The notes: generated from the letters alone by a model not told the origin. Shown: positions 34,914 to 49,049, numbered from the stretch's first letter. The stretch is DNA of 64,000 nt from Halalkalicoccus jeotgali B3 (GCF_000196895.1 NC_014298.1:310001-374000), one strand, 5' to 3'. Numbers and translations are program-made.

Positions 34914-36254
34914 TCAGGCGACCAAAGCGTTCGTCTGCTCCTCCTCGTCTCTCGATTCATCCGAGGCTGCGTCGAGTTCGATTGTCATTTCATCGTCGTC
35001 TGGGATGTTGATGACGGAAATCGTAGTCGACTCGTATTCATCGGCCTCGACGAGGACACCGTGGCACACACTCGGCGAAATCACGCTCGTCTCGATCACG
35101 CCATCGGCGTTCGACTCACCAGTGATGTACGCGTCGCCACTCGAGAAGTACCAATCGCAGACACCGCTGATCTCCGCGCCCTCAATAGGGTCGCCGGTTT
35201 CGGCGTCGACGACGTTCACCGTGAACTCGTCGTATCCGCCCTGAAGTTCGATCTCCGTGTGTCCGGGAACGTTGGTCGGCATCAGAACCGAGGCGTGTTC
35301 ATCGGCATGGATGGTATACATGCCCGGGGCGAGTTCGAACGTTACCGAGCCGTTGGTGGCGTTCTTGGTCCATTCCTCACGCGTATCGTCGTTCCTGACG
35401 GTGACCGAGACGTCTTCTTGAGTGTAGACCGTGAAGTCGTACGTCTCAGGCTCCGGTTCGGGCTCCTCTTGCGCACCGATCACGAAGCGCTCGGTCTGTG
35501 CCGATTGGTTCACCGGAAGGCCGCGCGTGTCGTGGCGAACGGTGATCTCGTACTCGACGGCCTTCGCGATGGTCGATTCGGTGGTGACGTTGACCGTCCC
35601 GTCCTCGCCGGTTAGGTACTCAGTCGTCTCGCCGTTGACCGTTGCGGTCACGGGTTCGTCCGCAATTGGGTTTCCGTCCGCGTCGACTACCTCAACAGTC
35701 ACGGTGTAGGTGTAGCTTGGTGGCAGAAGCTCCTCTTCGCCCTCACTGTCGTCTGTATCGTCGCTGTCGTCACTATCATTATCGCCGCCCGTGTTGTCAG
35801 TCGAGCCGTTGTCGTCGGTCGAATCACTGTCGTTGGACGACGATTCATCGGTACTGGTGTTCTCATCGGCAGATCGACTAGAGTCGTCGGGCGATCCGCT
35901 ATCGCAGGGATCTGTCTCTGATGAGTCTCCACAGGGGTCGCTTGCCGAACTCGTCGAGGCGTCTGTGTCGGAGTTAGAACTGGACTCAGATGTGGAGTCC
36001 GACGCAGATTCTGACGCAGAATCGCTGTCTGAGGTTTCGTGTTCGGCCTCACTGTCAGTGTCGGCACTGCTGTTGTTGCCCTCCGCACTGTCCTGTTCGT
36101 CTTCGAGGTCGTCGCTTTGGTCTGGCGAGTCGGTACCGGTGTCGTCTGCTGGCTCGCCGGCCCCGAAGCCGGCGCAGCCGGCCATGATGACGGAGACGCA
36201 GACTAGTAGGGTGATTATCGTGTGGTTCTGTAGCCGTTGGCGTTGTACGGTCAT
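34914..36254 (-). CDS. Acidic lipoprotein with Ser/Asp-rich stalk and Ig-like domains
   Basis: A 446-residue protein. An N-terminal signal ends in a lipobox (VIMAGCAG, Cys about 27). Then comes a low-complexity stalk of about 135 residues made of Ser, Asp, Glu and Thr, with CGDSSETDPC and similar Cys pairs inside. After that come beta-rich domains: YTVTVEVVDADGNPIADEPV (Ig/CNA-B-like, about 185-270), a PEGA-like part and VNVVDAETGDPIEGAEI. It ends in a highly acidic tail. This is a surface-anchored protein with a spacer that holds the domains away from the membrane (inference). Partner and ligand are unknown. Start ATG 36254. Confidence 0.75.
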   Translation of the reverse strand: MTVQRQRLQNHTIITLLVCVSVIMAGCAGFGAGEPADDTGTDSPDQSDDLEDEQDSAEGNNSSADTDSEAEHETSDSDSASESASDSTSESSSNSDTDASTSSASDPCGDSSETDPCDSGSPDDSSRSADENTSTDESSSNDSDSTDDNGSTDNTGGDNDSDDSDDTDDSEGEEELLPPSYTYTVTVEVVDADGNPIADEPVTATVNGETTEYLTGEDGTVNVTTESTIAKAVEYEITVRHDTRGLPVNQSAQTERFVIGAQEEPEPEPETYDFTVYTQEDVSVTVRNDDTREEWTKNATNGSVTFELAPGMYTIHADEHASVLMPTNVPGHTEIELQGGYDEFTVNVVDAETGDPIEGAEISGVCDWYFSSGDAYITGESNADGVIETSVISPSVCHGVLVEADEYESTTISVINIPDDDEMTIELDAASDESRDEEEQTNALVA

Positions 36255-36292
36255 GTTGTCCTCACTCCATGTGATATGACTGAGATATCGCG

Positions 36293-36590
36293 CTATACGA
36301 TCTTAACCTTTGCAGATCGAAAACAAGTGTCAGCAAACGGCTCAGTTCGGATATCGAGGAGAGTGGACTGGCTGTCATCCTGTTCAGTGTCGTCTTCAAG
36401 CAATTCTCCAGTCCGGTGGCGGTATTTGAAGTACTTGAGTCCGATCTCACGCCAGGTGCAGGGGTTGTAATTGTAGCATGCTTCGAACTCGAAGGCTTGC
36501 CTATCGTTAAGCAGCGAGAGATCCCGCCGTAAACGGCAGGCGCGAATCGCGTAAGTCTCGTGATGGGGACACGCCGTCAGGTGTCCTCCT
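36293..36590 (-). pseudogene. 5'-truncated Cys/His-rich protein
   Basis: The frame reads TACPHHETYAIRACRLRRDL, then FEFEACYNYNPCTWREIGLK and YFKYRHRTGELLEDD before TAG at 36293-36295. Several Cys/His residues (CPHH, C, C, NPC) could bind zinc. No start codon precedes CPHH, and the sequence before it is the duplicated CocE/NonD end, so the 5' end was removed by that rearrangement. The family is unknown. A run of small hairpins overlaps the coding sequence at 36520-36590. Confidence 0.5.
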
Positions 36591-36593
36591 GCA

Positions 36594-36740
36594 ATGCTCG
36601 AATGGAATCGAAACGACGAAAGCGGGGTACGCCCTTACCGCCCGGACCTGCATGCGGCGAGCCGGATGGCCACACCTGTACGGAGGTTACCCTCCCCCCG
36701 TAAGGAGCATACGAGTGAACTCAAAAGCCACTGCAAACAA
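36594..36740 (+). repeat. Partial duplication of CocE/NonD gene end
   Basis: This stretch matches 33247-33400: both begin ATGCTCGAATGG, keep the region around CACACCTGTACGGAGGT and continue about 40 bp beyond the stop (GTAAGGAGC, CAAAAGCCAC or equivalent). A base is missing near 36605, so the frame is broken. Divergence shows the duplication is not recent. Confidence 0.75.
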
Positions 36741-36940
36741 GGCGGATCACGACCCAGAACACACGAAATGATGGTTGTGCCTCGAGACGGCATTGATCGC
36801 GAACTATCCCAGCAGGTAGCCAGTCCCCATCTTGGTATTGGCATCGGTATCGGAATTCCGAAAACAACCGTTTAAGCCCCTCTAACCCCCAAAATCCTTG
36901 GTTTTATGTTCCTGGAGCGTTATGAGAATTAGTGCCGGTT

Positions 36941-37191
36941 GGAGCCCCGATCTGTATGCACGGGATTCTGCCGGCATGAGTTACAACTATGGCCGCAGAA
37001 AACGCAACCGAAACGAACAGTCCGTCCACGTCGTGTGAATGCGGACGTCGAGAACAGCTCGAACGAATCGTCCTCGGATCACGGGCGCTATACCTACTGG
37101 CAGGAGCGCTCGTCTCCGTAGCAACAGCGATGACTCTCCTCGGTGTTATCAGCGGGTCTCCCTAAGCTCGGGAGCCCCGATCTGTATGCAC
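36941..37191. repeat. 21-bp perfect direct repeats flanking a small gene
   Basis: The same 21 bp (GGAGCCCCGATC, then TGTATGCAC) occurs at 36941-36961 and 37171-37191. Between them lies a 58-aa gene. The right copy begins just after the stop codon. It could be an attachment-site duplication, the target duplication of a lost element, or a regulatory site. Confidence 0.6.
36989..37165 (+). CDS. Small membrane protein (58 aa)
   Basis: The frame MAAENATETNSPSTSCECGR begins at ATG 36989. A short Cys pair (CEC) precedes a basic stretch and one hydrophobic helix (ALYLLAGALVSVATAMTLLG). It resembles many small haloarchaeal single-helix proteins. A 21-bp direct repeat flanks it. The start ATG lies 28 bp after the left repeat. 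Function unknown. Confidence 0.5.
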   Translation: MAAENATETNSPSTSCECGRREQLERIVLGSRALYLLAGALVSVATAMTLLGVISGSP

Positions 37192-37336
37192 CTATAGACT
37201 GGAGGTAGAACATCATAATCCTTACGCAACGGAAGAGTGATTCGCAAGGTTGTTCATTGGCGACTGTATCGATCGAGTGGTCTCTACTCAGCCATCATAC
37301 AAAGCGGTAGCAGTACGCTCGCTTACGCCACAACTC

Positions 37337-39472
37337 TCAGTTCTGAAACGCTGCCAACGAGCTGTCTTGGTGGTCCGACAGATACGCTTCGATATCGCTC
37401 CGCTGCCACCCGAGTGGCGAGCAGACACTTTCGGCAGCTCGGAGCAATAGATCCGCGTAAAATTCGGCATCATACTGCTGAGACAATTCATGAGTGAGCT
37501 GAACGCGGTCTCGAGAGCGCTTTGAGTCGTCGACCACCACGTATGAAACGTCCTGTCCAGGCTGTGGATCAAGTCCCTCATCCTGTGCACGCTGCAGTGC
37601 AGCAACCGTTCGCGTGGTCCGGGTATACTCCTCGACGTGCTTTGAGGGTCGATTATCGATTGTAAGCACCTCCGGGTCGACCCGCCCGGCATGAAGTTCC
37701 GCGAGTTGACGCTGCAGGCGAGCACACACTACTTCTGGCGATCGAGACTGATCAAGCGTCACGATCAGCTCCTGTTGGGCGTTCGTGATCCAGTCCGGCG
37801 TTGATCGCTGGCGACACTCGATACCCCGATACTTGTACTCGGGCTCATCACCCGTTGCAGACGCGACCTTTCCGAAGTATTTCGTGAGCGCTCCCTCGTC
37901 ACGATCACGCAGAGGAACGAGTGCAAGCCACTCGAAGGCCGATTCGTACTCAAGTCGAATCCCAACACGGTCGGAAATCACCGTCGCAAGCTCGGTAAGC
38001 GGTGTCTGTTTCTGACCCTCAATCGCGGTCACCCAGAGGCTATCGACGATTCCATGCAGAAGGTGCCACCCATTGGCCTCAAACGTCTCCTTTGTATCGA
38101 GCAGAATCTCGCGAGCATAGGCGTTGATCGCTTCGTGACATTCGATGCGACCGAACTTCGCATTACTAAATCCCTGATAGCCAAAACAGCTTACCAGAAT
38201 CCACTTGATCGCGTCCGCACGCGACTTCAGGACTGCAACTCGCTCCTCATCATCGATCTCTCGGATCTCTCTTTTCATCGTATCACGGGCGTCGATCAAC
38301 GGCTGTAGGACGTCGGGGAGATACCCACGCTCATCACAGATCGAATACTCCAAGCCCGGCACGTCTGCCCGATCGGCGTGACAGTCACACCGGATCGTCT
38401 CAGGGCTTACGTTGAACTGGCAGATGATGTTCGGATACAACGAGGAGAAATCGAGCTCGTGGACGTTCTCGTGAAAGCCGGCTTCCGGAGAAAACGTGTA
38501 CCCACCCCGGTCAGCATCGTGAAGCGTTGAGAGTGGCTTGAAAAACTCGTGGCGCCAGGAGTTCCACGGCACTAACACCTCCCGATCTCGGGCCTCACGA
38601 ATCTGCATCGCCGTCAGAACGTTGCCGATCGATGCCCACCCGAGTTCCTGCAGTGGTTTCCCCGAGCGACGAACCATATCCAGACAGCCATCCAACCCCG
38701 ATTGGGAGTGAAAGAACGTATTTGAGCGATCGATAATCACCCGTCCTGGAACGTTATATCGCGCTGGAGAGTGGCCAACGCTGCCATAACTCTCGTAGGT
38801 CGACCGCCCGGCAAGTCGCTCCCAGCCGGGTCGTCGTCCAAGCTGGAGGTCGACATCGTGCTGGTCGGCCATCTCGGAGAGCGTCGGTATGAGTTCACCC
38901 GAAGAGAGGACCAACACATCCGGGTCAACCTGCCTGAGTCGCCGCTGAATCGCGTACAGTATGGCCTCCGGTGAGCCTGTCACCGTCTCCTCATTGATCT
39001 GAAGCTCAGTGAGCGGTGGATTCGAGAGGGCGGGTGGTTCAGCATCGATCGCAAGCACCGATGGAACGCGGGTTGGAGTGGGGTCACGGCCACGCTCCAA
39101 GCAGTAGCGAAACTCCCGTGAAAAATCCACGTTGTAGAGTTTGTACTCACCAGGCCAGCCGAGTTTGCGGATTTGTGAGGCTAACGGACGGACAGCAGCA
39201 AGCTCTCGAACATCAATTCGAAGTATCGACTCGTGTTCATGGCGAAACCCCTGCCGCCACTGTTCGATCGCCATCGAGGCGACTGTCGGAGAGGACGCAA
39301 GACGCTCCTGAAGGTCAGAAAGCCCATCCTCGGCCCGGCCATCGTAGGTCACGTAGATCGTCGGCGTATAGTCGGTCACTCGTTCGTACTCAGCACCAGT
39401 GGGAGTGATCGACCACTCGTAGACGTCCCCAGAGTCGAGAAAATCGATCGTATAGACCATCTCCCTGGTCAC
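37337..39472 (-). CDS. Minor family-B DNA polymerase (PolB2-like), altered catalytic motifs
   Basis: A 711-residue protein, shorter than replicative PolB (about 780-1300). The exonuclease region has a DxE-type start (LAIDAE, about 141-146) but no clear Exo II/III. Polymerase motif A DFSSLYPNI (341-349) is intact. Motif B is KWILVSCFGYQGFS, where the usual Asn and Tyr are Val and Phe. Motif C reads GIVDSLW (474-480), so the first Asp of the usual DTDS is not conserved (Ile) and only the second remains. Such changes are typical of minor archaeal PolB2 proteins, some of which are thought to be weak or inactive. It overlaps the upstream small gene by 4 bp (GTG start; ATG 39460 is possible). Confidence 0.85.
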   Translation of the reverse strand: MTREMVYTIDFLDSGDVYEWSITPTGAEYERVTDYTPTIYVTYDGRAEDGLSDLQERLASSPTVASMAIEQWRQGFRHEHESILRIDVRELAAVRPLASQIRKLGWPGEYKLYNVDFSREFRYCLERGRDPTPTRVPSVLAIDAEPPALSNPPLTELQINEETVTGSPEAILYAIQRRLRQVDPDVLVLSSGELIPTLSEMADQHDVDLQLGRRPGWERLAGRSTYESYGSVGHSPARYNVPGRVIIDRSNTFFHSQSGLDGCLDMVRRSGKPLQELGWASIGNVLTAMQIREARDREVLVPWNSWRHEFFKPLSTLHDADRGGYTFSPEAGFHENVHELDFSSLYPNIICQFNVSPETIRCDCHADRADVPGLEYSICDERGYLPDVLQPLIDARDTMKREIREIDDEERVAVLKSRADAIKWILVSCFGYQGFSNAKFGRIECHEAINAYAREILLDTKETFEANGWHLLHGIVDSLWVTAIEGQKQTPLTELATVISDRVGIRLEYESAFEWLALVPLRDRDEGALTKYFGKVASATGDEPEYKYRGIECRQRSTPDWITNAQQELIVTLDQSRSPEVVCARLQRQLAELHAGRVDPEVLTIDNRPSKHVEEYTRTTRTVAALQRAQDEGLDPQPGQDVSYVVVDDSKRSRDRVQLTHELSQQYDAEFYADLLLRAAESVCSPLGWQRSDIEAYLSDHQDSSLAAFQN

Positions 39473-39750
39473 TCCCCGCTGTCGATTGAGTCGGTCTCAC
39501 TCTCTAACTGCGCAAGTCGACTTTCGAGCTCGTCGAGCCGTGCTTCCTGTTCGAGATCGATCGACACCAGTGCGGGGTAGAACGGTTCCGTATGGTTGAG
39601 ATACCCGCTCGCGTCAGCGTGAGCACGAATATATGCAAAGAGCTGATCGAAGTGCTGTTGATCCTCTCGGCGAAGCCCGCGACGATAGTCCGACCACTGG
39701 TTGTCGAGTGCTCGTAAAACGTCGCGATAGGTCGGGTTAGTACGACCCAT
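39469..39750 (-). CDS. Small partner protein of PolB/RecA-like module
   Basis: A 93-residue protein starting at ATG 39750 (MGRTNPTYRDVLRALDNQW). It is mostly helical and ends in a coiled coil (RLDELESRLAQLESETDS). The N-terminal motif GRTNPTYRD is found in homologues beside minor PolB genes in haloarchaea, as I recall. It overlaps the upstream RecA-like gene by 14 bp and the polymerase gene by 4 bp, so all three are translationally coupled. Its function is unknown; it may tether the two partners (inference). Confidence 0.7.
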   Translation of the reverse strand: MGRTNPTYRDVLRALDNQWSDYRRGLRREDQQHFDQLFAYIRAHADASGYLNHTEPFYPALVSIDLEQEARLDELESRLAQLESETDSIDSGE

Positions 39751-40426
39751 CGGCAGGCACCTCCGGAGACTGCAGGCCGGCTTGCGCGGCATCATAAACC
39801 GGCTGTCGGGCCTCTAGTATCCGCTCCCAGAAGGCAAGCGTCGTCTGAAGCTGTCCGTTCCCGAGTGGGTAAACGAGTGTCTCGAAGCCGTCGCTGTGGA
39901 ATCGTGGACCCATCCGGGTCTGCTCACACGCAATGATATCGCCGGCAGCATTCGTGATGGGCTCAGAGAACGCATCCTTCCGAGTTCGGGTGAGCACCAC
40001 CGTAAGATCGTACTCTCGAGCCACCCCCGAGAGCATCGCGAGAGCCCGAACGAGCATCGCCTGGCGGTCGTCCTCTCGAAGTGCGTCGTCGCGATACAGG
40101 CCGTCGATCGCCGGACAGATAATCAGCGAAGCAGTGTCATCAACCATCGTCGAAAGCGTCTCGGTGAGTCCGTAATGCTGAAAAGCAGTGAACCCACGTG
40201 CAACGCGAATGCGATCAAGCACCTGTGGATCCGGTGCGAGTCGCGCAAGTAGGTGGGTCGTTACGTGGCCGTGGGTATCGACCCAGTAGGCTGGCCCGCG
40301 AGTCGTGAGGATGTGATCCAGTACGAGCGTGTGTAAGGGGCCGCGAACAGAGTCGCTGTCGAGCAGATAGACCCCACTCGACAAGGATGGTAACTCCGGG
40401 ATACGGTCCGATCGATAGGATTCCAT
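39737..40426 (-). CDS. RecA/RadA-like protein without Walker motifs
   Basis: A 229-residue protein with the alternating strands of a RecA-fold core (TLVLDHILTTRGPAYWVDT; SLIICPAIDGLYR; YDLTVVLTRTRKDAF). The position of the Walker A loop (about LSSGVYLLDSDSVRGPLHT) has no GKT/S, and the Walker B-like strand lacks the usual hydrophobic-Asp ending, so ATP hydrolysis is doubtful. It heads a three-gene unit with a small protein and the PolB-like gene. It may act as a structural paralogue of RadA, for example in recombination or repair (inference). ATG 40426. Confidence 0.65.
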   Translation of the reverse strand: MESYRSDRIPELPSLSSGVYLLDSDSVRGPLHTLVLDHILTTRGPAYWVDTHGHVTTHLLARLAPDPQVLDRIRVARGFTAFQHYGLTETLSTMVDDTASLIICPAIDGLYRDDALREDDRQAMLVRALAMLSGVAREYDLTVVLTRTRKDAFSEPITNAAGDIIACEQTRMGPRFHSDGFETLVYPLGNGQLQTTLAFWERILEARQPVYDAAQAGLQSPEVPADGSY

Positions 40427-40535
40427 GGCGAGCTAATGTATCACAACTGGAATAAGTACAGGCGTGTCAGTACCAATACTGCCGAAAGAAGATCGTACGG
40501 TCGCCGAACCTCAACGCAGTCAGTCGATTCTTGGA

Positions 40536-41564
40536 TTAGGAATTTCGGGCTCCGAAAGCGCTTTCCGAAAGTCGGTAGACCCGGGCGCGTTTCTCGCCGT
40601 CGGCATCGATCAGATGATAGTGTTCCATCTTCCCAAGGTAGTTCCGGACGCTCCGTCTGGACTTTGGATCGTCACAGCGCTGCTCGTACTCTTCATACAG
40701 CGTCCCCGGTGTCGTCTCACCATGGTCTTCGATGATCTCATAGAGGACCTGCTGATCATGCGAAAGCTGCTCGATCGTTTTCTGCCGAAGCTCCGAGCGA
40801 GTATCGGGAACCGCCGCGTCGATGATCTCGGTTGTGAGCGACTCGGCGCCGCCGCGAGAGGCTTTGCGAGCGGCCGTTCGGAGAATCCCGATCGCAACCC
40901 GAGCGTCCCCAGCGGCTCGATCAGCGATCAATTCCATCTGTTCACGTGAAACGACGCCGTCTGCAAGCCCCGAATTTGCTCTCGCATCGAGGATCGCGAC
41001 AATTTCATCAAGAGAATAGGGGTCAAACTGGACCCGCTCGCTGCCGGTGAGGCGACTGTAGAGGCGATCGCCGAGGTTCGAGTAAAACTCCTGCTCGTCG
41101 TTTGCGATGAGAATCAGCGAGATATGAGACAGGGTGTAGAGATCATAGAGGACGTCTTTTTCCTCGAGTTGGTCGACCTCATCGAGGACGACAACATAGG
41201 GATCATCGTTCGCCTCGCAAATGCGATCGTAGAGAACATCACGGGGCGTCGATTGGCGATGGATGTCGAGTGTGCGATCGAGCCCTTCGAGGAGCCGATA
41301 GAGCACACGATAGCGGTTATAATCCTGCCAACAGTTAACATACTGTGTCCGGACGTTGAACGAGTTCTCACGAAGTTGTTCGACAGCGTAGCGAGCACAG
41401 CAGGTCTTCCCGACACCGGTCGGACCGAAGATAGCGGCCGTTTCAGCAGGCTCTCCACGCAGGACAGGCGCAAGGATCCCGGAGAGGTGGGTGAGCTCCG
41501 TATTGCGGTGGACGACCTCTTCTGGGACGAACGTATCCTGGAACACTCGAGCGTCCGTGATCAC
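40536..41564 (-). CDS. Orc1/Cdc6 replication initiator
   Basis: A 342-residue AAA+ protein. Walker A FGPTGVGKTCC (about 46-56), Walker B VVVLDEVDQL, sensor 1 LILIANDEQEF and sensor 2 region (DARVAIGILRTAA) are present. The C-terminal winged helix (VLYEIIEDHGETTPGTLYEEY) binds origin DNA. GTG 41564 is the only upstream start. Several haloarchaeal plasmids carry such a gene beside their origin; the intergenic 41565-41700 holds short direct TTCCGA-type repeats but no recognised ORB element. It is transcribed towards the PolB module, separated by about 110 bp. Confidence 0.9.
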   Translation of the reverse strand: MITDARVFQDTFVPEEVVHRNTELTHLSGILAPVLRGEPAETAAIFGPTGVGKTCCARYAVEQLRENSFNVRTQYVNCWQDYNRYRVLYRLLEGLDRTLDIHRQSTPRDVLYDRICEANDDPYVVVLDEVDQLEEKDVLYDLYTLSHISLILIANDEQEFYSNLGDRLYSRLTGSERVQFDPYSLDEIVAILDARANSGLADGVVSREQMELIADRAAGDARVAIGILRTAARKASRGGAESLTTEIIDAAVPDTRSELRQKTIEQLSHDQQVLYEIIEDHGETTPGTLYEEYEQRCDDPKSRRSVRNYLGKMEHYHLIDADGEKRARVYRLSESAFGARNS

Positions 41565-41733
41565 ATTGCAGAATGAGTTGCAAATGAAGGGTAATAAACG
41601 GTACTGGGGTGGTTCCGAAAGTTCCGATAAGTAGTGGGTTGATCAGCAATGGATACTCGTATTCGATTCGACTGGTCGCATTCGCGACTGAGACACCACC
41701 TTTTCGGACATGCGAGCCGAAGCCATCGGTGAC

Positions 41734-41919
41734 ATGAGCATGAAAGACAAACTCCGTCGACTCATTGGTCTCGTAGAGGGCCACGAAGACAAGGTGGCCG
41801 AGCAAGTCGGCAAGCGTACCAGTATGGACAAAAAGCAGGCCAAGGATCGTATTCATAAAATTCAGGAAAAGGTCAATGAAGACTCAAACACCGACGACAG
41901 AGACCGAAACCAGAAGTGA
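41734..41919 (+). CDS. Small charged protein (61 aa)
   Basis: The frame starts MSMKDKLRRLIGLVEGHEDK at ATG 41734 and ends at TGA 41917-41919. It has an amphipathic Lys/Glu-rich sequence similar in style to small antitoxin-like or CsbD-like haloarchaeal proteins. An upstream in-frame ATG at 41710 would add eight residues. No partner toxin is beside it. Function unknown. Confidence 0.5.
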   Translation: MSMKDKLRRLIGLVEGHEDKVAEQVGKRTSMDKKQAKDRIHKIQEKVNEDSNTDDRDRNQK

Positions 41920-41924
41920 CGACA

Positions 41925-42045
41925 GCGAACAGTTCCTGAGTAAGGTCACATCCGTATGGGATGAGACAACCGTCGTGAGTGGAAATCCCACAGAGGAGGC
42001 GACATTGGCGAGGTGCGATGGTGAACAATGGAGAATTCGTTGCTC
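41925..42045 (+). pseudogene. GH97 C-terminal fragment
   Basis: The frame reads SEQFLSKVTSVWDETTVVSG and EEATLARCDGEQW. It corresponds to AERFLSEVPAVWDESTLVNG and EEATIARRSNNEW of the complete GH97 enzyme at 22.7 kb. It has lost its frame beyond TRP and everything upstream. The piece is related but not identical, so it stems from another GH97 gene that once lay beside the LacZ gene. Confidence 0.65.
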
Positions 42046-42176
42046 GTCTGTGGCCATCTCGATAAGAGGCAGAAAAACGGAATCACAGCATACGGCGTTT
42101 TTGCGCTCAGAGGATGGCTGTCGGCCTCATCTAGGCCGACTTGCGGGCGCTCGCCGAGCCCAATTTCATCGGTCAG

Positions 42177-45100
42177 CTACTCTCGGTTGGGTTTCGGAAG
42201 GCGCCGCTTTGCTAGTTCCATCGGATCTTCGTTAGCGAACGGCCGAAGCGAGACTGTGAAAGCCATCGTTTCGGGCTGAACCTGGTACTCAGGCAATGGA
42301 GTAGTCGGTGTTCCACCGACACCAGTCACTGCATGATCGAGGTTGAATCCGATAGAGCCGCGCTCTTCGAGTTCGTACTGGTGGTTCGCCTCATCTAGAT
42401 TTGCGTACTGCTCGAGACTGACATGCATCTCAGGATGTGCACTTGCCGCGATACCAACGCCGTCGTCGTTCGAAACGGCAGCCCAGCGGGTCTCAGCCTT
42501 ATTTCCGTTGTCCTGCGGTGGGAGATAAGGGACATACTGGTCAGCGACCGACCCCGAGTACCGACCGACGCGTACGCCCCACTTGCGGTCAGGCATCGTC
42601 TCCTGGGGGCCACGGCCGTACCACTCGAACTCGCCGAACGATTCGGGCAGTTCAAGCTGGACGCCTACCTTGGGTAACCAGCCGCTGATCGCACTCTGGA
42701 GTCGGTCATTAGGATCGGATTCGACATTAAGGACGATCTCGCCAGTCCCGAAGACCGTGTAGGTGTACCGCGTCGCGAATCCAGGCCCGTAGCCTTCGTC
42801 CTCAGCCTCTTCGAATTCATCAAGGTCGTACCACAGTACCGCATTCTCCGGCGGTTCGTCGAATTCCGTCGCGAGTTCCTCATCATTGAGTGCGGTATCG
42901 TAGACGGCCACCGAATCGATCGTCGTTTCGGTGTAGCGGTCCTGATCAGCGTTCTGTCCGATTCGGACCGGCGCGCCACTTGAGTCGATATTCCCGATCG
43001 AGTGGCTCTCGGCGGCCAACCGTTCGCCGTCGAGGTACAACCGAAATTCGTCGTCAGCACAGACGCTCGTGAGCGTGTGCCACCCTTCACGAGCCTCGTC
43101 GGGGATCGGCGCCTGCATCGAGACCCAGTTACCGTCATAGACGAAGAACTCGAAGGCATCGCCGCCAGCGGTCTTCAACGCGTATTGGTAATCACCCTTA
43201 GCGACCAATGGACCGTGCTCAGCGTCGTCGATTCCTTGGAAGGTGACCTCAAGGGTGAATCCCGGCTCGGTGAAATCGAGGGCATCGGGCGTACCGACCT
43301 CGATGTAGTCGTCTTCTCCATCCAGCGCAACTGCGCTGCCGGAAACGCCCTCAACGATCTCAGGACTGCCTCGGAGTACGCCATCAGCCTCCGTTGAAGA
43401 CGAATCAGGTGTAACAAGCCCTTCGTCTTCGGCGGTTCCCTCTGCGAAGCCTTCGACAGCGACGCGAGCGAGTGCGTCCTCCGGTTGATCGACATCGATC
43501 GACTCGACAACGTAGTTCAGATCGTTGAGCCCGGCATCGTACCAATCGGGCGCCTGTGCGCCGCCCCAATCCTGAAGTTCGTTCATGATCGGCGCTCGCC
43601 AGGCGTTCAGCAGCGGGCCGCGATCGAGCAACTCGGTTCCATTGTACTCCATCGAGGCGAGCGTCCCAAGCTCCGTGTCGAAAGCATACTCAAAGCTCTC
43701 GCCGCCGACCGTGATTGTCTCGTCAGATTCCGAGACCGACAGCGCTGGCATGTCCTCTATGCTCTCGGTTTCCGGATCGGGGACGTCGAACGGTACCGCA
43801 ACCTGCTCGAAGGCGACTTCGTGGCCGGCGTCTGCGTAGTCGGTCGCTTCGGTGAGACAAGCCGAGACATCAAGCCAATACTCGACGCCTGCCTCGAGGT
43901 CGGGTTCCTCGAAGGGGACGGTGACGGAGCAGGTCTCGCCTGGCGGGACGTCAAGATCGAGCTCGCCCGACTCGACAGTTTCGTCGTCAGCGGTGAGCTC
44001 CCATGTCACGTCCAACTCGTCGAGGTCGGTGAACCCGAAGTAATTTGTGATATAAATCTCGCCGTTCTCGACCGCGCGCGCAGCGAAGCCGACAGGCTGG
44101 TGGCTCTTCTTGAGTTCCCACATCTCGGGCTGGGGGGTGCGATCCGACCAGAGGGTGCCGTTGAGGCAGAACGCTCCATCGGGCCCTTCGAGGTGGTAGA
44201 ACTGAAACGGTTCGCCGTCCTCAGTCTCGTCGTTCAGGTCTTGGTTCACCCAGTCCCAAATCCACCCACCCTGCAGACTCTTATCGCGCGCGAGCTCGGC
44301 GAAGTCGTATGACAGCGTCGCGTCTCCTGGCGAAGAATACTCATCTCCATCGGGGACGACGTCGTAGAGGGCCACCGAATCGAGCGTGACGCCCGTGTCG
44401 TTATCGGTATTGGGATCGCCGGCGATCCACAAGTCACTACTGGCTTCGAGGTCCTCGCCCGAATGACCCTCGGTACCTACCTGTTCGTCGTTGACGTATA
44501 GCTGCAGTTCGTCACCCGTGTAGACGCCCACAAGGGTGTGCCAGCCGTCCCCGTCCGGCGCCGACGCCGAGACTGACGCATCGCCGACTGAGAACTCGAT
44601 CCCATCATCGGAGACCGCCAGCGCGTAGCCATCGGCAACAACGAGCGGAGTCCCATCAGTGATCTCCCGGACGACGATTTCGACAGTGAATCCCGATTCG
44701 GAAGATGCGATTCCCTCGATGCCGAGAACCTCGATGTGATCGTCGCCTTGGAAAACGATCTGGCCGTCGCCAGTGACCTCTGGATTGCCGATGAGGACGC
44801 CATCGTTTTCACCCGCACCGTCGCGTGCCTGGCGGACTGGAGGCTGGATATACTCGGACCACATCTCGTGAATCAGCCCGAGACTGTTGCCCATCGCGTG
44901 GTTATACTCACCCATCATCACAGGTCGCAGGCCATCGCCGAGTCCGGAGCCGTCACCCTCGCTTACCATCCCATCGGGCATGGGATAGCGCGGCCCCAGC
45001 ATATCGCTGTAATCGATGGTCCAACCGCCGCCGTTGGGCTGGTGGTAAAGCTGTCGAGTGGTATCGACTCCGCGGGGCTCGAGGTCGAGCTCCTCGCCGA

Positions 45101-46994
45101 CGCGATCTGCGTCGTCGGCCCCTGAAAGGTGGTAAGCTTCGAACGTATCGGGGATCCTGTCCGCGTTCTCCTCGCCGAGATTATAGGCAGCCATCGCAAG
45201 GTGTGGTGGACCCGTACCGGCCTCGTTACCCGTCGAGTAGACGAACACGGAGGCGTGGTTCTTGTCGCGCTGGACCATGCGGCGCCACCGAGTGAGCATC
45301 TGCTCATCAAATACGTCGACGTTGGCGGCCATCTGCTCCCACCAGTGAGTCTCGACGTTGATCTCGTCCTGCACATAGATCCCGTACTCGTCAGCCAGCC
45401 GGTAAAACGTCGGATCATTCGGATAGTGAGAGGTCCGTACTGAATTGACATTGAACCGCTTCATGACCTCAAAGTCCGTTCGGAGAGTCTCGATTGGGAC
45501 GTACCGGCCGTAATCGGGGTCGGTTTCATGGCGGTTCACTCCCCGGATGTTCATCGCTTCGCCGTTAACGTGCCACGTGGAACTCAACTCGCCGCGCTCG
45601 CTCTCATATGCTCGAAATCCGACCTTCTCAAGTAGTACTTCACAGGGATCGTCCTTGCTGTCAGGCTTGTCGAGCGGAACGAGTTCCAAAACCAGTGTAT
45701 ACAGCGTCGGATCCTCTGCAGACCACTTTTCAGGGTCGCTCACCTCGGTTTCGAGCGAGACGTGGGCACCCTCAGCGTCGACCGTGGCTAATCCAGACAG
45801 CGTTGCGACCTCTCGACCGACTGATCCGTTTTTCGGCGAACTGTGACCGGAGGCTTTGGAAGGGCTTCTACCCGCGTCACCTGCAGGTGGCCCACGACCT
45901 GGGAAGTCATTAGACCGATTGTGGCCCGATCTGTCGTCCGGTGGTCCGCGTCCGGGCGTTTCCTTAGGTGGACCGCGTCGGGGCTGGTCCGAATCAGGCG
46001 CATAGAGATGCCCTCGAAGTTCGTACTCACAGATTTCCTCACCGTTATTAGTAAGTTCGGCGTCGACTCGCAGCGTTGCATCCTCGTAGTCGTCGTCGAG
46101 ATCAGTCCGGACAAAGAAATCGCGCACATGAACCGCCGGCGTCGAGTACAGAGAGACGCTTCGGAAGATCCCTGAGTAACGGAACATGTCCTGGGTTTCG
46201 ATAGCCTCGCCGTCCGAGAAACGATACACTTGCAGGGTAACGGTGTGTGTTCCACCGGGCGTGACGTACTCAGTAACGTCGAATTCGCCGGGCGTCATCG
46301 ATCCTTGGTGATAGCCGACGTATTGACCATCGATCCAAACGAAGTACGCCTGCTTCACGCCGGCAAAATGGAGAAACGTCTGGCGACCGTCCCAGTCAGC
46401 GGGTACATCGAACGAGCGCCGATAGACACCGACTGGATTATTTTCTAGCGGAACCTCCTCGACGGGATTCGCATCGGAGGGGGGATCGTAGTGGTTCCAA
46501 GTCAAATCAGAGTTGATGTACAGCCGTTGGCCGAATCCTTGGGTCTGCCAACTGCTCGGGACAGCAATTTCATCCCAGTCAATAGCGTCGTGAGAATCTG
46601 GAACCGCCGCATGGTTCTCATACCGTTTGAATCGCCAGTCTCCATCAAGCAATTGAAAATATGGCGACTGACCGAATCGAGTCTCTAAGCGTTCATAAGG
46701 GGAATCCGCGTCTATGGCCTGATCAACCGACTCAAATGGTACGGTCGTCGTAACGTGTGGCGATGCATGATTCTCTTCAAAGACCGCTGGATCGTCGATA
46801 TACGACGAGAGTGTTCTTTCGTCAATTGTCCCCGGAGGAATGGTGGAGGAAGACTCGTGTACTCCTACAGCAGTTCCCACAGCACCCCCAGTAGCTAGTG
46901 TTGCCATACCTGTCGCCTGTAGGAAGCGTCGTCGGGAGGTTGAAATTCGGTGTTCTATCGACTCATCCTCTAATGAATTATCTATTCTACTCAT
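42177..46994 (-). CDS. Exported beta-galactosidase (GH2) with two LamG-like inserts
   Basis: A 1605-residue protein, far longer than LacZ (about 1024). A Tat signal (STSRRRFLQATGMATLATGG, about 19-38) is followed by GH2 sugar-binding and Ig-like domains, a low-complexity Arg/Gly/Pro-rich insert (about 334-392), and the TIM barrel with acid/base Glu in VYSTGNEAGTG (about 591) and nucleophile Glu in VMMGEYNHAMGNS (about 696). A LamG-like unit (about 726-903, 44286-44819) interrupts the barrel between the nucleophile and GGWIWDWVNQDL. A second LamG-like unit (about 1200-1393, 42816-43397) splits the C-terminal beta-sandwich. Both inserts share signatures (GWHTLVGVYTGDELQLYVND; GWHTLTSVCADDEFRLYLDG). 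It is probably surface or secreted and binds polysaccharide. ATG 46994. Confidence 0.92.
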   Translation of the reverse strand: MSRIDNSLEDESIEHRISTSRRRFLQATGMATLATGGAVGTAVGVHESSSTIPPGTIDERTLSSYIDDPAVFEENHASPHVTTTVPFESVDQAIDADSPYERLETRFGQSPYFQLLDGDWRFKRYENHAAVPDSHDAIDWDEIAVPSSWQTQGFGQRLYINSDLTWNHYDPPSDANPVEEVPLENNPVGVYRRSFDVPADWDGRQTFLHFAGVKQAYFVWIDGQYVGYHQGSMTPGEFDVTEYVTPGGTHTVTLQVYRFSDGEAIETQDMFRYSGIFRSVSLYSTPAVHVRDFFVRTDLDDDYEDATLRVDAELTNNGEEICEYELRGHLYAPDSDQPRRGPPKETPGRGPPDDRSGHNRSNDFPGRGPPAGDAGRSPSKASGHSSPKNGSVGREVATLSGLATVDAEGAHVSLETEVSDPEKWSAEDPTLYTLVLELVPLDKPDSKDDPCEVLLEKVGFRAYESERGELSSTWHVNGEAMNIRGVNRHETDPDYGRYVPIETLRTDFEVMKRFNVNSVRTSHYPNDPTFYRLADEYGIYVQDEINVETHWWEQMAANVDVFDEQMLTRWRRMVQRDKNHASVFVYSTGNEAGTGPPHLAMAAYNLGEENADRIPDTFEAYHLSGADDADRVGEELDLEPRGVDTTRQLYHQPNGGGWTIDYSDMLGPRYPMPDGMVSEGDGSGLGDGLRPVMMGEYNHAMGNSLGLIHEMWSEYIQPPVRQARDGAGENDGVLIGNPEVTGDGQIVFQGDDHIEVLGIEGIASSESGFTVEIVVREITDGTPLVVADGYALAVSDDGIEFSVGDASVSASAPDGDGWHTLVGVYTGDELQLYVNDEQVGTEGHSGEDLEASSDLWIAGDPNTDNDTGVTLDSVALYDVVPDGDEYSSPGDATLSYDFAELARDKSLQGGWIWDWVNQDLNDETEDGEPFQFYHLEGPDGAFCLNGTLWSDRTPQPEMWELKKSHQPVGFAARAVENGEIYITNYFGFTDLDELDVTWELTADDETVESGELDLDVPPGETCSVTVPFEEPDLEAGVEYWLDVSACLTEATDYADAGHEVAFEQVAVPFDVPDPETESIEDMPALSVSESDETITVGGESFEYAFDTELGTLASMEYNGTELLDRGPLLNAWRAPIMNELQDWGGAQAPDWYDAGLNDLNYVVESIDVDQPEDALARVAVEGFAEGTAEDEGLVTPDSSSTEADGVLRGSPEIVEGVSGSAVALDGEDDYIEVGTPDALDFTEPGFTLEVTFQGIDDAEHGPLVAKGDYQYALKTAGGDAFEFFVYDGNWVSMQAPIPDEAREGWHTLTSVCADDEFRLYLDGERLAAESHSIGNIDSSGAPVRIGQNADQDRYTETTIDSVAVYDTALNDEELATEFDEPPENAVLWYDLDEFEEAEDEGYGPGFATRYTYTVFGTGEIVLNVESDPNDRLQSAISGWLPKVGVQLELPESFGEFEWYGRGPQETMPDRKWGVRVGRYSGSVADQYVPYLPPQDNGNKAETRWAAVSNDDGVGIAASAHPEMHVSLEQYANLDEANHQYELEERGSIGFNLDHAVTGVGGTPTTPLPEYQVQPETMAFTVSLRPFANEDPMELAKRRLPKPNRE

Positions 46995-47401: not shown

Positions 47402-48643
47402 CTACTCGCTCACGGCATCAGCCGTTCGCTCCTTGAGGGTAGGGCTTCCTGCTTCCACGACGCGCTTTGCAGATACAGGTGTATCCACAGGGAGCGCAGT
47501 CTCCACAGGCGTTGATTCGGAGTATCCCACTCCTATATCTTCGAGGCCGCGAGAAAGAATGTTCCACGCCGCGTTCGCGTCCCTGTCCGCCTCGAACCCG
47601 CAGGCAGGACAGGAGTGTTCACGGACCCACAACGATTTCTCCGTTGAGACGCCGCAGGACGCGCACTCTTTGGTCGTCCCTCTCGGGTTGACCGCCACGC
47701 AGTGCGTCCCCTCTCGCTTGCACTTGTATTCGAGCACCGAGAGGAACGTTCGCCACGCCGCAGACGCCGTATTGCGACTGTTCGACGGAGATTCAAGCAT
47801 CCCCTTCACATTCAAGTCTTCGACCGCCACGAGGTCGTACTCCCGTGCGTAGTACGCCGAGAGTTTGTGCAAGAAGTCGCGGCGCTTCCGACGGAGGTCG
47901 GCATAACACTCCGCAACTCGCCGACGTTGCTTCTCGTAGTTGTTCGACCCGTGTTGCTTCCGCGAGAGCTTCCGTTGCTCGCGCTCCAAGCGTTCACGTT
48001 CGTTCGAGAGGTCAAGCGACCTGACCGCCGTGCCGTCGGTGTCGTAGGCGTACTTGAGAATCCCCACGTCGATACCGACACACTTCTCGGGATTCTCAGG
48101 CGGCTCAGGCGGTTCTCGGTCGATTTGAACGCCGAAGGTGGCGAACCACTCGCCCGTCGGTTCCTTCTTGAGCGTGACTTGCTTGAGCTTTGCGTCGCCA
48201 GGGATGTCACGGTGGAGCCGAATCGATATGTCCGCAAGTTTCGAGAGCGACAGCACAGTCTGACCGCCCTTCTTGTCGAGCTTGAAGCCAGACTGACTGT
48301 ACGTGAAACTGCGGAATTCTCGTGGTGGCTTCCACTTGAGTTGGCCGACGCCGTAGCCATTCTTCTTGAGTTTGGAGAGTCCTTTGAGATTGTCGAACAG
48401 GCGTTCCACAACTGTTTGGAGAACCTTCGAATACACGTCGGAGAGGCCGTCCCACCACGTCTTGAGGTCGGGTAGTTCCGACCGCAGGGTGGTCATGGAC
48501 GGCAGTTCGCCGTGTTCGTCTTGGTACTCATTGAGTCGGTAAAGCGTATGGTTGTAGAGTTGCCTACAAATATCTCGGTGGCGGTCCAACTCCTCATGTT
48601 GGGCGTCGGACGGCTTGAGACGGTACTTGTAGGCGTAGTACAT
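47402..48643 (-). CDS. tnpB: TnpB RNA-guided endonuclease
   Basis: A 413-residue protein. RuvC-like motifs are complete: Asp192 in GIDVGILKYAY, Glu275 in VAVEDLNVKGM and Asp355 in EADRDANAAW. A zinc finger is formed by CASC and CPAC. The N-terminal wedge starts MYYAYKYRLKPSD; ATG 48643 follows the tnpA stop by 1 bp, so an upstream extension in frame is not used. TnpB uses an RNA derived from the right end of the element to cut donor sites. The right-end hairpin directly after the stop codon could supply that RNA. The C-terminus GSPTLKERTADAVSE is typical. Confidence 0.95.
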   Translation of the reverse strand: MYYAYKYRLKPSDAQHEELDRHRDICRQLYNHTLYRLNEYQDEHGELPSMTTLRSELPDLKTWWDGLSDVYSKVLQTVVERLFDNLKGLSKLKKNGYGVGQLKWKPPREFRSFTYSQSGFKLDKKGGQTVLSLSKLADISIRLHRDIPGDAKLKQVTLKKEPTGEWFATFGVQIDREPPEPPENPEKCVGIDVGILKYAYDTDGTAVRSLDLSNERERLEREQRKLSRKQHGSNNYEKQRRRVAECYADLRRKRRDFLHKLSAYYAREYDLVAVEDLNVKGMLESPSNSRNTASAAWRTFLSVLEYKCKREGTHCVAVNPRGTTKECASCGVSTEKSLWVREHSCPACGFEADRDANAAWNILSRGLEDIGVGYSESTPVETALPVDTPVSAKRVVEAGSPTLKERTADAVSE

Positions 48644-48644
48644 T

Positions 48645-49049
48645 CTACTCGCGTTGGTTCTCGATGTACTGGTGCAGCACATCCAGCGACACCTGCCCCG
48701 TCGAGATGAGGCAGTACGAGTCGTTCCAGAACGAGTCGCCCCACAGGTCGGTCTTCAGTTCGTCCGCGTACTCGTTGCGGATACGGCGGGCGGTTGCGCC
48801 CTTGACTGTGTTGATGAACTTCACGAGGTCTGTGGTTGGTTTTGCTCGGAACAGGATGTGAACGTGGTCGTCCTTTCCGTCGAGGTTCGTCAGTTCGACA
48901 CCGTAGTTGTCAGTGAACCCGCTGATGACCTCGCGAATGAATTGGGTTCGCTCCTCGGTTAGCACTCCGCACCGATACTTTGTGGTGAGTATCAGGTGGT
49001 AGTGCAGGGAAAACGTCGAGTGCGCTCCCGAGTCGAGGTCGTATTCCAT
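48645..49049 (-). CDS. tnpA: TnpA Y1 (HUH) transposase
   Basis: A 134-residue protein with the HUH motif DHVHILF (about 62-68) and the catalytic Tyr in HQYIENQ (about 128). It nicks and joins single-stranded ends of the element. The stop is 1 bp before the tnpB start. The length is normal. ATG 49049. Confidence 0.93.
   Translation of the reverse strand: MEYDLDSGAHSTFSLHYHLILTTKYRCGVLTEERTQFIREVISGFTDNYGVELTNLDGKDDHVHILFRAKPTTDLVKFINTVKGATARRIRNEYADELKTDLWGDSFWNDSYCLISTGQVSLDVLHQYIENQRE

Follow-up and report, generated by a model that had tools for sequence, protein, structure and literature searches.

The PolB2 mutasome is described as an assembly of PolB2, PPB2 (arCOG07300) and iRadA (PMC11791011); its operon is described in PMC4104785, which also mentions additional iRadA-PPB2 pairs in haloarchaea. 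A 2008 study predicted a lack of activity for PolB2 (PMC2527604), a prediction that was later overturned. The purified Dpo2 of S. islandicus showed robust nucleotide incorporation, no exonuclease activity and efficient extension of mispaired ends after lesions (PMC8764526), and motif C of the S. islandicus PolB2 is given as IID, with the first Asp absent (PMC11791011). The position of polB2 beside an orc gene of the Orc5 clade in Halobacterium and other haloarchaea was noted in 2007 (PMC1906834), and the orc-polB2 linkage is already in the literature; a plasmid location of such an operon has also been published for Halobacterium and Haloarcula. In Sulfolobus, Orc1-2 binds its own promoter, and the induction of Dpo2 fails in strains with altered Orc1-2 supply (PMC9738581). 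With regard to haloarchaeal repair promoters, a UV-B study of Halobacterium names the radA1 UV motif TTTCACTTTCA, and its main text contains neither polB2 nor orc (PMC2556686).

The three genes analyzed here are almost certainly the haloarchaeal version of this PolB2/PPB2 (arCOG07300)/iRadA damage-tolerance operon. The module itself is already known, and the locus represents a further example of the known complex, which corrects the first-pass annotation of a dead polymerase.

Organization of the locus

The window is a 64,000-nucleotide stretch of Halalkalicoccus jeotgali B3. On its minus strand, an Orc1/Cdc6-family gene is followed, after 109 bp, by iRadA, PPB2 and PolB2 in this order:

40536-41564, minus strand: linked Orc1/Cdc6-family gene (342 aa), encoding an AAA+ protein with a lid, a winged helix, Walker A (GPTGVGKT) and Walker B (VVVLDEVD); score of 200 bits with TIGR02928 (cut-off 181)
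39737-40426, minus strand: iRadA, Rad51/RadA fold, lacking both the N-terminal domain and Walker A/B; Pfam Rad51, profile match and AlphaFold model
39469-39750, minus strand: PPB2 (arCOG07300-like), start MGRTNPTYRD; GRT/GRS/GRA start kept in all aligned relatives
37337-39472, minus strand: PolB2, B-family DNA polymerase with exonuclease motifs lost and motif C HGIVD; score of 1240.9 bits with NF004418 (cut-off 692)

The three overlapping intact frames proposed in the first-pass annotation (PolB2, a small-protein ORF at 39469-39795 and a RecA-like protein) are all open on the minus strand. The Orc1/Cdc6 gene, which had been placed after them on the same strand, does share their strand, but it precedes the operon. 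The small-protein ORF has 108 codons, and its real start is very likely the internal ATG at 39750, as judged from the MGRT sequence encoded there, with the upstream part of the ORF probably not translated. With this start, PPB2 would have overlaps of 14 bp with iRadA and 4 bp with PolB2. The protein thus begins with MGRT, and aligned relatives keep GRT, four of them in the form GRS or GRA; in the published mutasome work, the MGRT N-terminal arm is a hallmark of PPB2 and is modelled beside the polymerase active site.

The order iRadA-PPB2-PolB2 was found in all 34 PolB2-holding loci examined, with intervening genes in some of them. Compared with the PolB2 mutasome (PMC11791011 and PMC4104785), the locus has in common this gene order, the missing first Asp of motif C, the D(K/R) loop, the MGRT start of PPB2, the Walker-less RadA homologue and the enriched orc1/cdc6 neighbour. 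No difference was seen at the protein level, and the promoter element described below is unmentioned in the text examined from the two papers. In the Halobacterium polB2-Orc5-clade linkage (PMC1906834), the two genes are divergent, whereas here they are co-directional with orc upstream. The operon sits on a 406-kb contig and is plasmid-borne in several relatives; among the named relatives found, Halalkalicoccus paucihalophilus is the nearest, with a PolB2 that is 88% identical.

Several further features of these loci were observed. Four loci (L043, L044, L057 and L058) hold iRadA copies, one of them with PPB2, and have no PolB2 gene within the stretch examined. One contig (G066:C1) carries orc apparently in duplicate at ~1.326 and ~1.363 Mb, and another (G146:C1) carries iRadA apparently in duplicate at ~279 and ~316 kb; in each case, the copies have equal scores and lie ~37 kb apart, possibly reflecting recent segmental duplication. 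In the window, the ~1.1-kb gap downstream of polB2 contains a 21-nt exact direct repeat, GGAGCCCCGATCTGTATGCAC, at 36941-36961 and 37171-37191, 230 bp apart. On the other side of the module, positions 42177-46994 encode a secreted-looking, beta-galactosidase-like protein of 1605 aa with a Tat-type start and two laminin-G-like stretches, and an IS605 OrfB/TnpB-type transposase gene lies near the module at 47402-48682.

A promoter element shared by orc and the polymerase operon

Side-by-side comparison of the sequences upstream of orc and iRadA revealed a direct repeat, CGGAA-N4-CGGAA, that ends 15 nt before TTAT and is in exact phase with the TATA box. This element, CGGAA-N4-CGGAA-N15-TTAT with variants, is found in many haloarchaea ahead of the linked orc and of the polB2 operon, and hardly anywhere else. 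The two copies in the window are as follows:

41594-41626, minus strand: orc promoter element, CGGAACTTTCGGAACCACCCCAGTACCGTTTAT; exact, with the end of the TATA box 29 nt ahead of the GTG start
40452-40483, minus strand: iRadA-PPB2-PolB2 operon promoter element, GGCAGTATTGGTACTGACACGCCTGTACTTAT; degenerate, with 2/12 mismatches

A repeat just upstream of a TATA box, with the start codon ~25-30 nt after it, is the typical arrangement of a transcription-factor site on leaderless-type archaeal promoters; transcription is accordingly predicted to begin close to the start codon. At this stringency, the genome has no full site other than the orc copy. The two mismatches of the iRadA copy are common to its two congeners, and the iRadA-side element is exact in the next relative (L042).

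A search of 194 genomes for GGAA-N5-GGAA-N15-TTAT gave 58 exact sites, against ~9 for the reversed control. Of these sites, 23 are located 25-34 nt ahead of an orc start and 11 ahead of iRadA, and later inspection assigned two more to iRadA, one more to an Orc and one to an Orc remnant. When the spacer was allowed to vary between 8 and 22, it was 15 in 43 of 75 sites. A second test covered 75 loci with enough upstream DNA, allowing a repeat gap of 3, 4 or 5 and at most one mismatch. On the coding strand, the region upstream of polB2 yielded 73 sites, while the three controls yielded 2 (other strand), 0 (reversed sequence) and 1 (downstream). An ORF begins within 80 nt of 69 of these 73 sites, on their downstream side (median 25 nt). 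A stricter form of the element occurred 52 times with a spacer of 15, and every other spacer gave 0 or 1. Under the 75-locus rule, 19 of the 75 loci had no site. Since the element pattern was derived from part of the same data and the 75-locus set shares some species with the 194-genome set, it is the spacer and strand controls that carry the argument. Where the genes are arranged differently, the element stands directly before polB2, with sites 28-49 nt ahead of the gene. We have little doubt that the element is a real promoter signal.

Further targets in this genome did not emerge, with a half-site search giving 12 matches against 9 in the control and the sole full site being that of orc; with this one full site in its own genome, no global regulon was found. 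The element probably acts as operator in a small regulon that is private to these genes. The DDRE hexamer ANTTTC is not conserved in the target promoters, in which the sequence between the repeats varies (CTATC, GATTC, CTTTC); it was rejected as a shared element, the ACTTTC in the orc promoter of the window being a chance occurrence unconserved in relatives. A description of the element was not found in a search of open-access literature. The Halobacterium radA1 UV motif TTTCACTTTCA (PMC2556686) is likewise a repeated short motif just upstream of TATA in repair promoters, but it differs in its sequence and in its gene set.

Element copies were also seen in other settings. In two genomes (loci L158 and L160), they are found ~200 nt ahead of genes for tyrosine recombinases of the phage integrase family, which may represent chance or mobile-element capture. 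At three further loci (L156, L168 and L157), orc-type promoter elements are not followed by a full orc, a situation that resembles gene loss, and L157 retains a short Orc remnant.

The linked Orc as a candidate regulator

The linked Orc retains Walker A/B, the AAA+ domain and the winged helix, and its promoter contains a candidate site. A tree of 55 sequences, which has a midpoint root only and in which long branches were flagged, places it in a clade with other haloarchaeal Orcs, many of them near iRadA; the nine further Orc proteins of its genome that were included fall outside this clade (support 100/99). Among the matches listed, 61 of 84 related Orc genes share a strand with an iRadA and lie upstream of it at a distance of no more than 5 kb. 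A close relative of the linked Orc is present in 100 of 117 genomes with an iRadA match, compared with 31 of 77 without one (194 genomes, which are related to one another, so that a p-value is not to be taken literally). The locus resembles the Sulfolobus Orc1-2/DDRE switch (PMC9738581) in its non-initiator-like Orc, which has a candidate site in the promoter of its gene and a proposed role at the PolB2 gene. The sites differ, with a CGGAA-N4-CGGAA repeat phased to TATA here and ANTTTC there; moreover, the site here appears private to the orc and polB2 genes, while the Sulfolobus regulon is global. By analogy with Sulfolobus Orc1-2, the linked Orc is the leading candidate for the binder of the element, a role for which we consider the chances evenly balanced, and the same analogy makes it moderately probable that the module is damage-controlled.

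The element also occurs at operons that lack a linked Orc, and a protein other than the Orc may therefore be its binder. The element would then be bound by a different conserved regulator, or would mark a special TFB/TBP promoter class, with the Orc merely being regulated. The 15-nt phasing to TATA could reflect contact with the basal machinery. Against this, the element tracks the Orc clade even where the Orc does not adjoin iRadA and is absent from the Orc's own paralogues, and Sulfolobus offers the precedent of an Orc that binds its own promoter. We regard another binder as a real but somewhat doubtful possibility.

The linked Orc might instead be a replication initiator, with the locus being, or having been, an origin and the polymerase operon inherited in an origin-proximal replication block. 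Haloarchaeal orc genes often flank origins, this Orc retains its AAA+ motifs and winged helix, and orc stands at the first coordinate in some complete genomes. However, a general repeat search of 40400-42300 and 36200-37400 gave weak pairs only and no origin-like inverted-repeat set, and the repeats that were found are promoter-phased, lying 15 nt from the TATA box. In addition, Halobacterium orc4 and polB2 are published as non-essential. We consider an origin at this locus unlikely.

The polymerase and its damage-tolerance complex

The window polymerase belongs to the PolB2 clade, according to its NF004418 score and its B-family fold. The sites that bear on its catalysis are the following:

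38450-38452, minus strand: codon of the motif A Asp D341 (metal ligand, invariant), from the family alignment and profile
38042-38050, minus strand: motif C I475-V476-D477, first Asp replaced by Ile and second Asp retained, both invariant among relatives

Comparison with the main PolB of the same genome, the one other PolB present and canonical in its motifs, bore out the first-pass description of the altered motifs. Motif C reads H473-G-I-V-D477 instead of YGDTD, and motif B reads K423-WILVSCFGY instead of KVIMNSLYG(V), with Asn replaced by Val and Tyr by Phe; motif A (DFSSLYP, with D341) is intact. HGIVD is present in 34 of 34 aligned PolB2 proteins (the window and all 33 relatives), and the altered motif B is nearly constant across the 33 relatives. 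Because motif C is invariant in all aligned relatives, the altered residues are a family signature rather than decay or a peculiarity of this genome. In the ADRGG loop before motif A, which matches the D(K/R) motif, D321-R322 is also invariant. In the exonuclease domain, the Exo II segment is deleted in 34 of 34 proteins and the Exo I acidic pair is unconserved, although the window protein retains D-x-E.

The motif-A Asp and the last motif-C Asp are the metal ligands of B-family polymerases. Both D341 and D477, as well as most of the palm, are invariant in the family alignment, and a family profile aligned with Pyrococcus PolB (5.8e-73) places D341 on the motif-A Asp and D477 on the last motif-C Asp. 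A catalytic Asp relocated elsewhere in PolB2 is unneeded, the two metal ligands being already in register. The AlphaFold model of PolB2 alone (pLDDT 85.7) has a B-family fold, with 9N DNA polymerase as the top PDB match and archaeal B-family polymerases matching best. S. islandicus Dpo2 (PMC8764526) shares with the window protein the PolB2 clade, the loss of exonuclease motifs and the replacement of the first motif-C Asp; the protein here differs in being a halophile sequence.

The RecA-like protein gave a Pfam Rad51 match (6.4e-07) and a profile match to solved RadA (7e-12), and its AlphaFold model (pLDDT 80.8) matches RadA/Rad51 structures. It has no P-loop and carries Pro at the position of the Walker B Asp, confirming a RecA fold without Walker A/B. 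From these residues, iRadA is plausibly catalytically dead, and loss of catalysis is also plausible for the exonuclease domain of PolB2.

The genes are kept, as the first-pass annotation had held, in a conserved operon and under purifying selection, with dN/dS values of ~0.09-0.11 for PolB2, 0.10-0.16 for PPB2, 0.19-0.29 for iRadA and 0.05-0.20 for Orc. Open frames in relatives and this dN/dS range (0.05-0.29) ruled out a pseudogene or recent decay. The idea of a non-catalytic repair complex fared differently in its two parts: joint action and a part in repair are supported by the conserved operon, the purifying selection and published models of the complex, whereas loss of catalysis is not supported for the polymerase, in which both metal-binding Asp residues are present and invariant and whose S. 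islandicus counterpart, lacking the same Asp, is a robust polymerase. A truly non-catalytic complex with PolB2 as a scaffold devoid of polymerase activity, which was also the reading of the 2008 literature, would account for the replaced first motif-C Asp, motif-B Asn and Tyr, exonuclease motifs and iRadA ATPase motifs, but is improbable given the invariance of both metal ligands and most of the palm and the activity of the Sulfolobus homologue with the same motif-C loss. By analogy with that homologue, the haloarchaeal PolB2 is most likely an active polymerase.

At the C-terminus of PolB2 (37337-37365), haloarchaeal tails tend to SLxxF/Y, resembling the main PolB tail QQTGLGSFM minus its Gln. 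It is possible that this is a weak PCNA-binding tail, but the absence of Gln makes such a box only a lead.

The overall explanation that we favor, with good confidence, is an active PolB2 mutasome operon and an Orc with a shared, TATA-phased promoter element, probably under the control of DNA damage. After damage, the linked Orc would act as a transcription regulator at the CGGAA repeats that lie just ahead of the TATA boxes, and would thereby increase the expression of its own gene and of the iRadA-PPB2-PolB2 operon. If the published models apply here, a single PolB2 and a single iRadA would join a PPB2 trimer in a complex in which iRadA, without ATP hydrolysis, would serve as a docking subunit and the MGRT arm of PPB2 would reach toward the active site. 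PolB2 would extend mismatched or lesion-bypassed primer ends by means of D341 and D477, without proofreading. That this amounts to a self-contained haloarchaeal switch, in which a dedicated Orc binds the TATA-phased repeat in its own and the polB2-gene promoters and controls the PolB2 mutasome, is a tentative proposal whose prospects fall slightly short of even.

What merits further attention is the promoter element common to orc and the operon; the proteins are known, and the proposed switch is a testable addition. If the proposal is true, the switch would be a haloarchaeal counterpart of LexA-umuDC or of Sulfolobus Orc1-2-dpo2 control, with a new operator, and binding of the element by the Orc would extend the regulatory role of the Orc family from Sulfolobus to euryarchaea.
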